From Bacteroidota bacterium (GTDB lineage Bacteria; Bacteroidota; Bacteroidia; Chitinophagales; Chitinophagaceae): DNA of 64,000 bases. The translations under genes were made by a program, and so were the position numbers. The DNA is taken from positions 1 through 64,000 of the forward strand of contig JACPEA010000012.1 of the NCBI GenBank assembly GCA_016183765.1, read 5' to 3'. Every line of letters begins with the position of its first letter. Within the stretch, counting starts at the first letter, position 1. The notes under the pieces were generated by a model, which was not told the origin of the DNA, did no database searches, and saw nothing but the letters and a program-made list of their open reading frames with translations. Positions 4,029 through 52,260 of this stretch are shown here, piece after piece.

Positions 4029-4240
4029 GAAATGTCAATGGTGAATGGTCAATTGTGAAATGTCAATTGACACCGTGGTAAACTAACTACTCCCTACTCC
4101 CTACTCACCACTCACGACTGACGATTCGTTGCAATTGTCAATGGTGAATTGTGAATAGGCAGGAGACACGGTACTAACTACTAACTACTAACTACTCACC
4201 ACTCACCACTCACCACTCACTACTGACGATTCACGATTGC
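4029..4240. repeat. Intergenic short-word repeat locus (TGTCAATGGTGAAT / ACTCACCACTCACC words), internally duplicated
   Basis: Tandem 7-mers such as actcaccactcaccactcaccactcac and aactactaactactaactact; two consecutive ~100-bp related halves. Confidence 0.85.
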
Positions 4241-4242
4241 CC

Positions 4243-6846: not shown

Positions 6847-7034
6847 GTAAAATCGTTAAAAGGGTTAAAATCGTTAAAGCAGTTAGAATGGTTTAGAGCG
6901 TTACAGGGCTACCCAGTGAGACCAAGCCCCCTTTAACCTCTTTAACCATTTTAACCCCTTCCCTTTAACCTCTTTAACGATTTTAACCCTTTTAACCTCT
7001 TTAACCATTTTAACGATTTTAACCCTTTTAACCA
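6847..7034. repeat. Tandem ~9-10 bp TTTAACCnnT repeat locus with partial inverted copy
   Basis: ctttaacctctttaaccattttaacccc...ctttaacgattttaacccttttaacctctttaacc; left segment taaaatcgttaaaagggttaaaatcgttaaag is its reverse complement. Confidence 0.85.
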
Positions 7035-10050: not shown

Positions 10051-10125
10051 AGTCTTCAGCTGTTGGGCTTTTGTCTTAGAGATATTTTTTATTACTTGCT
10101 CATTCTTCAAGGCGCTCTTCACCGC

Positions 10126-13154: not shown

Positions 13155-13191
13155 GGGAGTTAATAGTTAGTAATTAACGTATTGTGTTATT

Positions 13192-13328
13192 AAAATCTCT
13201 GCGCAAACTCCCTGTTCTCCTGTTCTCTGCGGTGAATAAGGTTCCGAACAATAGCAACTTGCCTTTTTGTAAGGTTTTTTCACCGGAGAGAATAGGAGGA
13301 GCAAAGTTTTCGCAGAGGGTTTCCGATT
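13192..13328. repeat. Inverted-repeat intergenic locus (CTCTGCG...CTCTGCGGTGAA / TTCACCGGAGAG...CGCAGAG)
   Basis: ctctgcgcaaactccctgttctcctgttctctgcggtgaa facing ttcaccggagagaataggaggagcaaagttttcgcagag. Confidence 0.75.
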
Positions 13329-21572: not shown

Positions 21573-21657
21573 ACTATTTTTTTAAAAGTTACGATTTATA
21601 TACGTCCGGTGCAATGATAAAGTTCAAAATTTCAGATTGTTAGGATAGTTTTAAGAA

Positions 21658-21824
21658 TCGTGAGCCGTGAATCGTCAGTCGTGAGTGGTGAGTGGTGAGT
21701 TGGCAATAGTGAAAGGGCAATGGTCAATTGTCAATAGGGGCCACCCATTCACAATTCACAATTCACAATTGCCAATTCACAATTCACTCCCTACTCCCTA
21801 CTCCCTACTCACCACTCACGATAT
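21658..21824. repeat. Nested inverted short-word repeat locus (GTGAGTGGTGAGT / ACTCACCACTCAC; CAATTGTCAAT / AATTCACAATTC)
   Basis: atcgtgagccgtgaatcgtcagtcgtgagtggtgagtggtgagt...attcacaattcacaattcacaattgcc...actccctactccctactcaccactcacgat. Confidence 0.88.
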
Positions 21825-26157: not shown

Positions 26158-26497
26158 TTTCCTTCTCAGGAGGGTCTCCCCAGTGGGGGACCCTCCGCTT
26201 AGCATTACAAAATACTCATGCTTACACTCAGTACAGGCCTCCGTTTTTAGAAACACGAATTCCCCTGCGTACAAACCGCAATCAACCGCTGCAGGCGGGA
26301 CTGCCGGAAAACTACCTGCACAGCTCAGCCCGCTATTATCATACAGGTGAACAAGGCGTATATCCTGTTATTACATATATGGAGTTGCAGGATGTTGCTC
26401 TTACTTAGTTTTATGTGCTATGATGAGTGAAGCAGTGGTAGAGCGGTGCTTCTAAGCAAAGAGCCCCCCGCTGGGGAGACCCTTCGCAGAAGGGAAA
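26158..26497. mobile_element. ~340-bp MITE/REP-like element, copy 1, with hairpin-forming inverted termini
   Basis: Left end TTTCCTTCTCAGGAGGGTCTCCCCAGTGGGGGACCCTCCGCTTAG; reverse complement of right end TTTCCCTTCTGCGAAGGGTCTCCCCAGCGGGGGGCTCTTTGCTTAG; interior matches 29651-29895. Confidence 0.7.
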
Positions 26498-29601: not shown

Positions 29602-29920
29602 ATTCCTTCTAAGCGGAGGGTCTCCCCAGCGGGGGACCCTCCGCTTAGAATTACAAAACACTCAGTACAATCCTCTATTTTTTAGAAACGCGAATTTCCC
29701 TGCGTACAACCCGCAATCAACCGTTGCAGGCGGTACCGCCGGAAGACTACTACTGCACAGTTCAACCCGCCATTATTATTATATAGGTGAACAAGGTGTA
29801 TATCCCGTTATTACATATAGGGAGTTGCAGGATATTGATCTAACTTGGTTTTCTGCGCTATTATGATGAGTGAAACAGTGGCAGAGCGGTGATGCTTCCG
29901 CGAAGGGGCTTGGGGGGGGC
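29602..29920. mobile_element. ~320-bp MITE/REP-like element, copy 2, right end degraded
   Basis: ttccttctaagcggagggtctccccagcgggggaccctccgcttagaattacaaaacactcagtaca...gcagagcggt aligns with 26158-26445. Confidence 0.7.
29607..29650. repeat. 44-bp near-perfect palindrome/hairpin at the left end of element copy 2
   Basis: ttctaagcggagggtc-t-cccc-agc-gggg-gaccctccgcttagaa: 16 + 4 bp stem with one bulged T. Confidence 0.85.
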
Positions 29921-29930
29921 GATCGGGAGG

Positions 29931-30019
29931 CGTGAGTCGTCAGTGGTGAGTGGTGAGTAGGGAGTGGGTTGGGAACAGCCCATTCACCATTCACAACTCA
30001 CAACTCACCACTGACGACT
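29931..30019. repeat. Inverted short-word repeat locus (GTCGTCAGTGGTGAGTGGTGAGT / ACTCACAACTCACCACTGACGAC)
   Basis: gtgagtcgtcagtggtgagtggtgagtaggga...cccattcaccattcacaactcacaactcaccactgacgac. Confidence 0.85.
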
Positions 30020-30103
30020 TTCCTTCTCCGGAAGGGAAGGTTACTGAAACCGATCGGCACCTCCTGCTGTAGGGCGGGGCCTATCAGCACCCTATCCCAA
30101 AAG

Positions 30104-34808: not shown

Positions 34809-34851
34809 GATGAGTGGATGAGTGAATGTGGCATTCACTCATCCACTCATC
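34809..34851. repeat. Perfect 20-bp inverted repeat made of GATGAGTG words
   Basis: gatgagtggatgagtgaatg-tgg-cattcactcatccactcatc; immediately follows the symporter stop codon. Confidence 0.9.
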
Positions 34852-34879
34852 CACTCATTCATTCATTGTATATTTGCCC

Positions 34880-45549: not shown

Positions 45550-45738
45550 TTGTGAATGGGCAATGGGCAATGGTGAATTGTCAATGGTGAATAGGCAATA
45601 GGCAGTCGGCAATGAAAACGGGTGTAAATATAAGAATTCTCTGGGGGGAGCGGTAAGTGGTCAGTAGTGTGTAATTTATTGACCATTCACCATTCCCTAC
45701 TGACCACTCACCACTCCCTACTGCTCATTGCCCGCCAC
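45550..45738. repeat. Inverted short-word repeat locus between rpoZ and coaBC
   Basis: tgaatgggcaatgggcaatggtgaattgtcaatggtgaata...ggtcagtagtg...attgaccattcaccattccctactgaccactcaccactccctact. Confidence 0.85.
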
Positions 45739-46950: not shown

Positions 46951-47045
46951 AACAAGTTGGCAAAATTAGTTAATTACGGGCAATTTATAAAGTCCGATTG
47001 TGGTTTGGGCCGTTATTTCGTTAAGAATTACCCAAAAAGGCAGCT

Positions 47046-47098
47046 TTGAGCCACGAGCGGCGAGCTAACACCTGCTCATGGCTCGTGGCTCATAGCTC
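47046..47098. repeat. Inverted repeat TGAGCCACGAGC ... GCTCGTGGCTCA with AGCTCGCAG word
   Basis: tgagccacgagcggcgagctaacacctgctcatggctcgtggctcatagctcgcag. Confidence 0.8.
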
Positions 47099-47119
47099 GC
47101 AGCCCTTACCCTCCCAACA

Positions 47120-49104: not shown

Positions 49105-49230
49105 AAGGTAGGGAATATTGAATATTGAATGGTGAACAAGGAATGATGAATGATATAACTTATTGACAATCAATAAAAAATGTTGAAGTATACCCAGTTC
49201 AACATTCAAAATCCCTTGTTCATGATTCAA
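49105..49230. repeat. Inverted repeat upstream/downstream of rpsA-uxuA made of GAATATTGAAT / ATGAACAAGG words
   Basis: gaatattgaatattgaatggtgaacaaggaatgatgaat ... ttcaacattcaaaatcccttgttcatgattcaatattc. Confidence 0.8.
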
Positions 49231-49234
49231 TATT

Positions 49235-50401
49235 CTACTGGTTTCGCTCGATGCCCAGTTCCAGGCCCCTCAGTTCTGCCAGGCCTCTTAAACGGCCGAT
49301 AGCGGTGTAACCGGGGTAGGCTCCGGATTTTTTCAGGTCGTCCAGCATCTGGTGACCATGATCCGGGCGCATAGGAATGGAGATACCGCGGCGCTTCTGT
49401 ACCTGAACGATCTCCTTCACCACAGCATACATATCCACGTCGCCATCCAGGTGATCGGCTTCATAGAAATTACCCAGGTCATCCCTTCGGGTGCTTCTGA
49501 GGTGGAGGAAATGAATATGATCACCCAGGCGTTTTACCATACCGGGCAGGTCATTATCCGGGCGTACCCCGAAAGAGCCGGTACAGAAACAAAAACCATT
49601 GGCAGGCGAAGCAACAGCAGCGCGCAGGTCATTGGCGTCCGCTTCGGTGCTCATGATACGTGGCAGACCCAGCACAGAATAGGGAGGATCATCCGGATGG
49701 ATGGCCATTTTCAATCCAAGTGATTCTGCTACGGGAACCACTTCGCGCAGGAAATGGAAAAGATGTTCTTTCAGTTTGGCGCGGTCAATGCCTTCGTATT
49801 TCTTCAGCGCATCAAAGATCTGTTCCGGCGTGAACTGCTCGCGACTACCTGGCAATCCCAGCAAAGTATTCTTGCACAGGAGGTCTTTCTCTTCCTGCGA
49901 CATGGAAGCCAGTTTCTGTTTACCTCTTTCGATCTCTTCAGGGGTATAATCTTTTTCTGCGCCGGGTCTTTGTAAAAGGAACAGGTCGAACGCGATGAAA
50001 GCCGCTTTCTCAAAATACAGGGCGCGACTTCTGTCGGGCATTTCGTATGCAATATCTGTCCTTACCCAATCCAGTATGGGCATGAAATTATAGGTGACCA
50101 CTTTCAGACCACAGGCGGCTACATTGTGCAGGCTGGTCTTATATTTTTCGATCCACTCCTGGAAGTTGCCGTACTGCCTCTTGATATCTTCATGCACGGG
50201 CAGGCTTTCAATCACGGTCCAGGTCATACCCGCAGCTTCGATCAATGCCTTTCGTTCGTTGATGGCTTCCACCGTCCAGATCTCTCCTACCGGGATCTGG
50301 TGCAAAGCGCTGACCACACCGGTACATCCGGCCTGTCGTATATCCCAAAGATCAACCGGGTCTTCCGGTCCGTACCATCGCATAGTGTGTTCCATTGCCA
50401 T
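49235..50401 (-). CDS. uxuA: Mannonate dehydratase
   Basis: [66 protein letters not shown]. Confidence 0.95.
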
Positions 50402-50491
50402 AATGCTTGCTTTTTATCAAACCTAAAAGTATCCCCACATATTTCATCGATCCCGACAGAAAAAATCTGCGAAATCGATGGCGGGAACGTC

Positions 50492-50582
50492 GTTCGTGAG
50501 TCGTGAATCGTGAATCGTGAGTAGTGAGTAGTCAATGGTGAGTGTTTTACTTCCTACTCACTACTCACTACTCACTACTCAC
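50492..50582. repeat. Inverted short-word repeat locus (CGTGAGTAGTGAGTAG / CTACTCACTACTCACG)
   Basis: gtgagtcgtgaatcgtgaatcgtgagtagtgagtag...cctactcactactcactactcactactcacg. Confidence 0.9.
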
Positions 50583-50589
50583 GCTCCCC

Positions 50590-52260
50590 CTACCAGAAAA
50601 TCGTATACAGCGCCGTCAGGATACCGCCTACGATCAAAGTCCCTACTGCAAAAGCAGGGTTGAGCTTAAACATAGATTTATCTATCTCGAGTCCATTGGT
50701 CTTAACACCGCGCTTATTTTCAATAGTACTGATGATCCACATACCAATGATACAGATCACGAATACGAAACCCATCCTGTCGATAAAAGGTATTTCATAG
50801 ATTCCTTCCACTTTTGCGGCGAAGCCCATGGGTTCGAGGAAAGAGAGGTCGGCAAATTTGGGAAGGAACTTGAAGAATATGGAGAACACAAATCCGCCCA
50901 CGGTGGCAAACAATGCTGCATTGGATGTGGTCTTTTTCCAGAAAAAACCCAGGATGAACATGGCGAAGATACCGGGCGATACAAAGCCCGTATATTCCTG
51001 TATGAATTCAAAACCACCTTTTTTACCGATACCCAGGAATGGCGCGATCAGTACGGCAACGATCAATGCTATGATCACTGAGATCTTTCCGATCCAGACC
51101 ATTTTCTTTTCGCTGGCATCTGGATTGATCTTTTTCTTGTAGATATCAAGCGTAAAAATAGTGGCGATACTATTGGCCTTTCCTGCCAGGGAAGCCACCA
51201 CGGCAGCTGTGAGGGCGGCAAATGCCAGTCCTTTCAGTCCCGGACCCAGCAGGTTCAGCATAACGGGATAGGCATTGTCCTGCACCAGTTCCCCGTTCAC
51301 CATCATCTGGTCCTGGAAACCACCTTCGTTATACAATACATATGCAGCAATTCCTGGCAGCACAACGATCACCGGCATCAACAGTTTCAGGAATGCGGCA
51401 AAGAGCAGTCCGCTTCTGGCAGTTTTCAGGTCGGCCCCCAGCGCACGTTGTGTGATGTACTGGTTACAACCCCAATAATTCAGGTTCACGATCCACATGC
51501 CGCCGATCAATACGGTGAGGCCTGGCAGACTGATAAAATTGGGGTTATCTTTTTTCAGGATCATGTGAAAATGATCATCGGCTTTTTCAGTAAGCAGTTT
51601 CAATCCATTCAATACACCCGTTGTGCCGAATTTTTCGGACACCAGTGTCAACGCAAGATAGGTAGTGGCCAGTCCGCCCACGATCAGGAAGAACACCTGG
51701 ATCACATCCGTATAACCAATCACTTTCATACCCCCCAATGTGATGACGATCGCAAACAAGGCGAGGAATATCATACAGAGATACAGAGGCAACCCGGAGA
51801 TGGCATGAATGGCCAATGCACCCAGGTATAAGATCGACGTGAGGTTCACCACTACGTAGAGTAACAACCAAAACACCGCCATGATCATTGCCACGGTACT
51901 GTTGTAACGCTGGTTCAGGAATTGCGGCATGGTGTAGATCTTATTCTTCAGGTATACCGGGATGAAAAAGATGGCTACGATCAGCAGTGTAGCGGCCGCC
52001 ATCCACTCGTAGGTTGAAATGGCGAGTCCCATTTTAAATCCATTGCCACTCATACCGATCATCTGTTCGGCAGAGATATTGGAAGCGATCAGCGATGCCC
52101 CGATGGCCCACCAGGTAAGAGATCCCTCGGCCAGAAAATAATCGTGTGAAGCAGTAGTGCTCGCTTTTTTCTTACGCCGGTAAACCCAGTATCCATAAGA
52201 GGCAACGATGATAAAGTACACTAGAAAAACAATGTAATCTGCAGTCTGCAATGATCTCAT
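50590..52260 (-). CDS. Sodium/sugar cotransporter (SSS family, vSGLT-like)
   Basis: DYFLAEGSLTWWAIGASLIASNISAEQMIGMSGNGFKMGLAISTYEWMAA; NYWGCNQYITQRALGA. Confidence 0.94.
   Translation of the reverse strand: MRSLQTADYIVFLVYFIIVASYGYWVYRRKKKASTTASHDYFLAEGSLTWWAIGASLIASNISAEQMIGMSGNGFKMGLAISTYEWMAAATLLIVAIFFIPVYLKNKIYTMPQFLNQRYNSTVAMIMAVFWLLLYVVVNLTSILYLGALAIHAISGLPLYLCMIFLALFAIVITLGGMKVIGYTDVIQVFFLIVGGLATTYLALTLVSEKFGTTGVLNGLKLLTEKADDHFHMILKKDNPNFISLPGLTVLIGGMWIVNLNYWGCNQYITQRALGADLKTARSGLLFAAFLKLLMPVIVVLPGIAAYVLYNEGGFQDQMMVNGELVQDNAYPVMLNLLGPGLKGLAFAALTAAVVASLAGKANSIATIFTLDIYKKKINPDASEKKMVWIGKISVIIALIVAVLIAPFLGIGKKGGFEFIQEYTGFVSPGIFAMFILGFFWKKTTSNAALFATVGGFVFSIFFKFLPKFADLSFLEPMGFAAKVEGIYEIPFIDRMGFVFVICIIGMWIISTIENKRGVKTNGLEIDKSMFKLNPAFAVGTLIVGGILTALYTIFW

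Follow-up and report, generated by a model that had tools for sequence, protein, structure and literature searches.

An inverted heptamer-word hairpin in a Chitinophagaceae genome and its relation to known intergenic heptamer arrays

An excess of heptamer repeats has been recorded in many bacteria. The STRR heptamers of cyanobacteria form dispersed intergenic arrays, which have been described as tandem. As far as later accounts report it, an excess of heptanucleotides was found by Mrazek (2007), with polymerase slippage proposed (PMC4679880 and PMC4692102). In Xanthomonas, (GGGANTN)n arrays form 70 (Xcc) and 75 (Xac) convergent inverted pairs, are 89-93% intergenic, lie on average 28 nt from the upstream ORF and 160 nt from the downstream ORF, and differ greatly from species to species at the same genes (PMC4692102). 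Rehm et al. (2015, PMC4692102) also describe a related repeat of Nostoc, GGGGA(C/T)T, and mention three tandem heptanucleotides in Calothrix PCC7601. Direct TAACTGA heptamers occur in Beggiatoaceae, Cyanobacteria and five Bacteroidetes (PMC4679880). REPs are single palindromes of 20-40 bp that carry a GTAG or CGTC tag; those of the GTAG type often lie near a RAYT (PMC3733652).

The locus described here lies in a window of 64,000 nt (the whole stretch of DNA analysed), contig C17 of a 3.67 Mb Chitinophagaceae genome near Sediminibacterium (G000). At positions 50496-50583 two heptamer arrays, GTGAGTN and NACTCAC, form an inverted pair in which the left-hand words stand opposite CTACTCAC repeats. 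The left arm (50496-50543, plus strand) has its G-rich strand running 5'->3' to the centre and reads GTGAGTC, GTGAATC, GTGAATC, GTGAGTA, GTGAGTA, GTCAATG, GTGAGT. The right arm (50549-50583) is made of CTACTCA repeats, including four perfect 7-mers at 50554-50582 (TRF 100%); here the minus strand is the G-rich one, and it too points at the centre. The ungapped arms are separated by a short unpaired centre at 50544-50548, and in the plus-strand RNA fold the central loop is about 10 nt. Arms 50509-50543 and 50549-50583 (35 nt) are 80% complementary, and the alternative pairing of 50502-50531 with 50554-50583 (30 nt) is 87% complementary. Predicted RNA folds were much stronger than those of shuffled sequence on both strands (-43.8 kcal/mol, z -6.2 on the plus strand; -48.5 kcal/mol, z -8.4 on the minus strand). 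Direct reading, arm pairing and TRF confirm the hairpin that an earlier, sequence-only reading had placed at 50492-50582.

The upstream neighbour is a sodium/solute symporter-like gene, read as a sugar symporter (50590-52260, minus strand), whose stop codon is 6 nt from the right arm and whose product has Sediminibacterium soli and S. roseum among its close named relatives. Downstream lies a uxuA-like (mannonate dehydratase) gene (49235-50401, minus strand). A conserved site upstream of it, GCCATCGATTTCGCAGATTTTTT (50463-50485, minus strand), forms the uxuA-side limit of the hairpin. Most relatives keep this site, hairpin or not (L158-L164, L166), and it is probably a binding site for a regulator.

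With up to two mismatches, ACTCACTACTCAC was matched 37 times in the window against 0.67 expected, a number reached in 0 of 100 shuffles. Five loci using this word had been named (4.1, 21.7, 29.95, 45.65 and 50.5 kb), all said to be intergenic with both orientations. All matches in the window do fall there, both orientations are present at each, and gene calls place all five between genes. Two hairpins of this GTGAGTN family lie side by side at 4034-4241; the one at 21655-21823 has inner GTGAATT/GGCAATG words; that at 29924-30022 has a loop in common with C1:70837-70913; and that at 45552-45723, between dfp-like and rpoZ-like genes, lies beyond the rpoZ-side terminator and is missing from genome G010. 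Six further word loci in the window are likewise intergenic by gene calls. A hairpin of a 9-mer family (GTTAAAANN) was found at 6848-7034, and a perfect hairpin of an 8-mer family (GATGAGTG) at 34809-34858, with its first base directly after a stop codon and 20/20 positions paired. A GAGCNRY-family hairpin 3' of rpsA (47042-47103) lies beyond the ordinary rpsA terminator, and a GAATATT/GAACAAG-family hairpin (49110-49235) is inherited in common with an 88%-identical relative.

Palindromes without such words were also seen. One family, CTAAGCGGAGGGTCTCCC / CGAAGAGTCCCCCGCTGGGTAGACTCTTCG, is present at 26158-26496 and 29607-29650 of the window and at C1:430737-431938. Non-periodic palindromes with words such as CTCTGCG..CACCGCAGAG and AACCGCGCC..GGCGCGGTT were met more than once in the sampled genome (window 10051-10125 and 13155-13250; C1:72991, C1:76390 and C1:161645).

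A catalogue covering 861 kb of G000 contained dozens of word hairpins, outside genes. Tandem-periodic stretches in these 861 kb were sharply in excess at periods of 7, 14 and 21 nt, with further excesses at 8/16 and 9/18; a Markov control had no such stretches at any of these periods. Inverted repeats were counted at a score of at least 14 in intergenic spacers of at least 50 nt, against matched coding windows. Intergenic bias and inverted pairing, both proposed as checks in the sequence-only reading, were borne out in G000: inverted repeats were present in 104/467 spacers and 0/467 coding windows, and 31 adjacent pairs faced inward as compared with 4 outward. Its claim of several word families is likewise supported by the catalogue. 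Clustering of the periodic hairpins of G000 and G043 gave 19 word clusters, 14 of them with at least two members, although a few clusters, rich in AT or weak in their periodicity, may not be genuine word families. The arms are arrays of 3-10 words, with a median arm of 34 nt, and main-family words fit G[TG][GC]A[AG]TN. The main words GTGAGTN, GAATGTT and ATTTGAAA have no GGG tracts.

In the whole G000 genome, ACTCACTACTCAC with at most one mismatch gave 340 matches against 62 for a reversed control, which probably itself contains other word families. Several genomes of the f17 family (G154, G181, G221, G281 and others) were rich in the reversed control pattern, CACTCANCACTCANCACTCA, in a phylum scan. 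Among 61 sampled genomes of the genus, G000, G033, G043 and G049 were rich in the word and the others had 0-4 matches; G308, a relative outside that first sample, had 285. By the same score, inverted repeats were present in 61/406 spacers of G043 and in 12/157 spacers of G010, of the same genus, where none was periodic. In an rpsA tree the carriers and the repeat-free G010 form one clade with branching inside it not resolved, and therefore one gain followed by loss in G010 fits, as do several gains. G010 has a palindromic repeat of its own, CGTCATCCTGAGCGAGCGAAGCGAGTCGAAGG, in several spacers (L085, L089, L090, L097). Two contigs of G043 end within about 13-15 copies of ACTCACA (C89, 35250-35346 of 35347; C102, 43539-43635 of 43637), so the repeats probably break draft assemblies and the longest arrays are probably undercounted.

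One polarity is common to some 14 multi-copy word families with periods of 7, 8 or 9: read 5'->3', the strand rich in G and poor in C leads to the hairpin centre. The left arm was G-rich and C-poor in 45/46 scorable periodic hairpins of G000 (binomial p 1.3e-12) and in 26/27 of G043 (p 4e-7); both p values assume independent loci, an assumption that fails within a family. Taken family by family, the polarity was kept in nearly all clusters with at least two members. Non-periodic hairpins followed no rule (25 vs 23). Clear hairpins of other words, all with the same polarity, were present elsewhere in Bacteroidota, in five genomes that belong to other genera, families and classes (G154, G159, G186, G187 and G232), those of G154 being of the GTGCTGAG type. 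Transcription direction was rejected as the source: the polarity is unchanged in the word hairpins of divergent spacers and is therefore a property of the element. The C-poor arm is the stop-codon-rich arm, and selection for inward-reading stops would be a possible, trivial cause. We judge the polarity rule to be the part of these observations that no current explanation covers.

The main family also has a word order. Toward the centre, C-linked words (GTGAATC, GTCAGTC) give way to G- or A-linked words and then to GGGAGTG. C-linker words came first in 274 cases against 46 and GGGAGT words late in 105 against 23, and neither order was reached in 2000 within-arm permutations (0/2000 for each). 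Loops are mostly private to each locus, with no common internal sequence of the kind that marks a MITE; the exceptions are a 16-nt loop present at both window 29932 and C1:70837, and a tandem duplication at C1:69.5 kb. Across 34 loci of one family, left arms matched their own right arms (17.6) no better than foreign ones (17.7). Together, word order, private loops and this parity argue for the exchange of arm tracts between loci, and against fixed-element transposition or local fold-back as the main process. No obvious target-site duplication was seen relative to the empty gap of L162, in a sample with no close pair of empty and filled strains.

Turnover was followed between species, the closest genome being 88% identical (L158 = G308, JADBXR01). 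From the symporter stop to the conserved site GCCATCGATTTCGCAG, G000 has 107 nt of hairpin-bearing sequence and L158 has 59 nt, 48 nt less, with shorter arms. The excess in G000 amounts to 14 nt for one arm and 28 nt for the other, plus about 7 nt at the outer edge; at this one locus, in a hand alignment kept in register and uncertain as such alignments are for repeats, the arms differ by whole words. Inheritance was followed between the same two genomes at a second locus, the rpsA-uxuA hairpin, which is of common descent and free of arm indels. The symporter gap carries other arrangements in other relatives. In L164 (G049) one arm is written in 8-letter GGTAARTR words, L161 (G043) has the GTGAGTN family in another arrangement, L163 has GTTAAAAGTGAATAG words and a second hairpin, of GAATGTT, before uxuA, and L189 (G033) has a GAATGTT-type hairpin without the conserved site. 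In L159, L160 and L162 only about 15-18 nt and no hairpin follow the symporter stop, the empty gap of L162 being put at about 20 nt; the genome of L162 (G311) is rich in the repeat, and those of L159 and L160 have none of the GTGAGTN word. Across 97 syntenic spacers of G000 and G043, the word families of the hairpins often differed. Rapid turnover of word hairpins between relatives is supported. The 50.5-kb locus had been read as the least drifted and hence the most recent; this holds for the expansion of its words but not for the birth of the locus: a hairpin already stands at this position in the 88%-identical relative.

With moderate confidence, we regard the locus as a member of a genome-wide population of non-coding inverted word arrays that is largely neutral or selfish. 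Within a locus, words would be gained and lost by replication slippage in one-word steps. Between loci, template switching or ectopic exchange would rewrite short arm tracts from other arms of one family; in this way arm words and their order would come to be shared genome-wide and loops would stay private. New copies would survive wherever they do no damage, in the stretch from a stop codon or terminator to the next promoter. Transcribed copies are predicted to fold as strong 3'-end RNA hairpins and may have mild effects, but these hairpins are not required, because sister species lack them at the same gap. Slippage and exchange alone account neither for the common polarity nor for the birth of the inverted pair.

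It is unlikely, though worth serious consideration, that the hairpins are selected 3'-end RNA elements, acting as bidirectional transcription barriers or stabilisers of mRNA 3' ends with the word free to change. Their folds, far better than those of shuffles, would suit such a role, as would their position right after stops: in tandem spacers they start a median of 6 nt past the stop and end 52 nt before the next start. In G000 they occupy 33/67 convergent, 60/306 tandem and 11/94 divergent spacers; convergent spacers are richer than tandem ones (p=1.6e-6), and the difference between tandem and divergent spacers, the latter being poorer, is by itself not significant. Hairpins were also present in both G000 and G043 at syntenic spacers above chance (odds ratio 6.6, p=0.0015), an association confounded by spacer length and orientation. 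Nevertheless, ordinary terminators coexist with the word hairpins, preceding them at rpsA and rpoZ, and the right arms are not followed by the T tract of an intrinsic terminator (T fraction 0.28). No Rfam family was matched in the window at gathering score, several relatives lack a hairpin at the locus, and in the rpsA-uxuA hairpin of L158 the arms have decayed and pairing has been lost with no compensation.

Movement by Y1 (RAYT/TnpA-REP) transposases, as for REP/REPIN-like elements, is improbable. The high copy number, palindromic form and intergenic position 3' of genes are consistent with it, Y1_Tnp genes are present in G000 (three full-length, one partial), G043 and G049, and a Bacteroidetes TnpA-REP subclass, 2.6, has been reported beside 'atypical secondary structures' (PMC6006769). 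However, loops are private, word number per arm is variable, the words were absent from about 1.5 kb around the three full-length Y1 genes of G000, and the 800-nt flanks of Y1 genes had no match elsewhere in the sampled genome; linkage to RAYT/Y1 was rejected. The carrier G033 has no Y1_Tnp over the cut-off, and the non-carriers G010 and G035 have it; Y1_Tnp seems neither necessary nor sufficient for the repeats, although the G033 assembly is a draft and REPtrons can be lost (PMC3733652). A reverse-transcriptase link was likewise rejected, RVT_1 having no match in three of the four carriers (G000, G033, G049) and being present in the carrier G043 and in several non-carriers. The search for an associated RT or Y1/HUH protein, as the sequence-only reading had advised, therefore found neither tracking the carriers. 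Its suggestion that no known REP family explains the loci fared better: no obvious REP family and no RAYT linkage were found, and direct reading of the sequences gave no single 20-40 nt palindrome with a GTAG/CGTC tag. Arms of several loci pair very well, up to the 20/20 of 34809-34858, as local fold-back copying would have it, one arm templating the other by quasi-palindrome template switching; this is very unlikely, since across the 34 loci own arms match no better than foreign ones, the result on which locus-specific palindrome copying was rejected, and since the genome-wide sharing of words and their order would be left without account. End addition at breaks, with G-rich repeats placed on both 3' ends that are then joined like head-to-head telomere fusions, would account for the universal inward G strand, the private loops and the inverted pairing. 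It is nevertheless hardly credible, with no RVT_1 match in carriers G000, G033 and G049, no enzyme or template identified, and many templates needed for the many word families.

Beside the largely neutral or selfish population that we favour, we offer a tentative and rather unlikely proposal, that a single undescribed directional DNA-copying process builds the hairpins, with the word sequence as interchangeable cargo. It is put forward because unrelated word families in several Bacteroidota families have one polarity and one inverted layout, and because relatives swap word families at the same gap. Polarity, word order, whole-word change and word replacement at one gap provide testable predictions on heptamer repeats, and such word repeats break assemblies and rewrite the between-gene DNA where regulation sits.

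In the open literature, nothing closer to the word hairpins of Bacteroidota or Chitinophagaceae was found than the papers cited here. The proposal that they form an undescribed class stands only in part. The Xanthomonas repeats (PMC4692102) have the same architecture and a similar word skeleton, and therefore the class is not undescribed. Both systems consist of tandem heptamers with variable positions, (GGGANTN)n there and G[TG][GC]A[AG]TN here, which are intergenic, nearer the upstream ORF and few in divergent spacers, with many convergent inverted pairs, and in both the repeats at the same gene pairs of relatives are very different in length and sequence. Xanthomonas has one word family per genome, whereas some 14 multi-copy families were found here in two genomes, with periods of 8 and 9 as well; G-quadruplex potential (GGG tracts) is stressed there, and most words here have no GGG. 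Words replaced at orthologous gaps, and a word order along the arms, were seen here and do not appear in the accessible part of the Xanthomonas description. The skeleton G-[GT]-[GC]-A-N-T-N is common to GTGAGTN here, GGGAATC in Xanthomonas, GGGAYTG in Nostoc and GTGATTA in H. pylori; the likeness could be due to chance (a few percent per random heptamer), yet it recurs across phyla.

The TAACTGA repeats (PMC4679880) are also intergenic, sporadic heptamers, with relatives lacking the array at the same place, but they are direct (one of 170 sets is inverted), lie for the most part shortly before start codons, and are of one word. The long simple sequence repeats of Mrazek share period 7 as the commonest unit; inverted pairing and polarity are not treated in that work as it is reported. 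REP, BIME and REPIN elements are likewise high-copy intergenic palindromes 3' of genes, whereas the arms here are word arrays of variable length without RAYT linkage. Cyanobacterial STRRs, compared by their description, share the dispersed intergenic heptamer arrays. The population described here is a richer, multi-family variant of a known but poorly understood type of repeat, to which it adds the coexistence of many families in a genome, 8- and 9-nt periods, a polarity common to the families, an order of words along the arm and the replacement of words at one gap.
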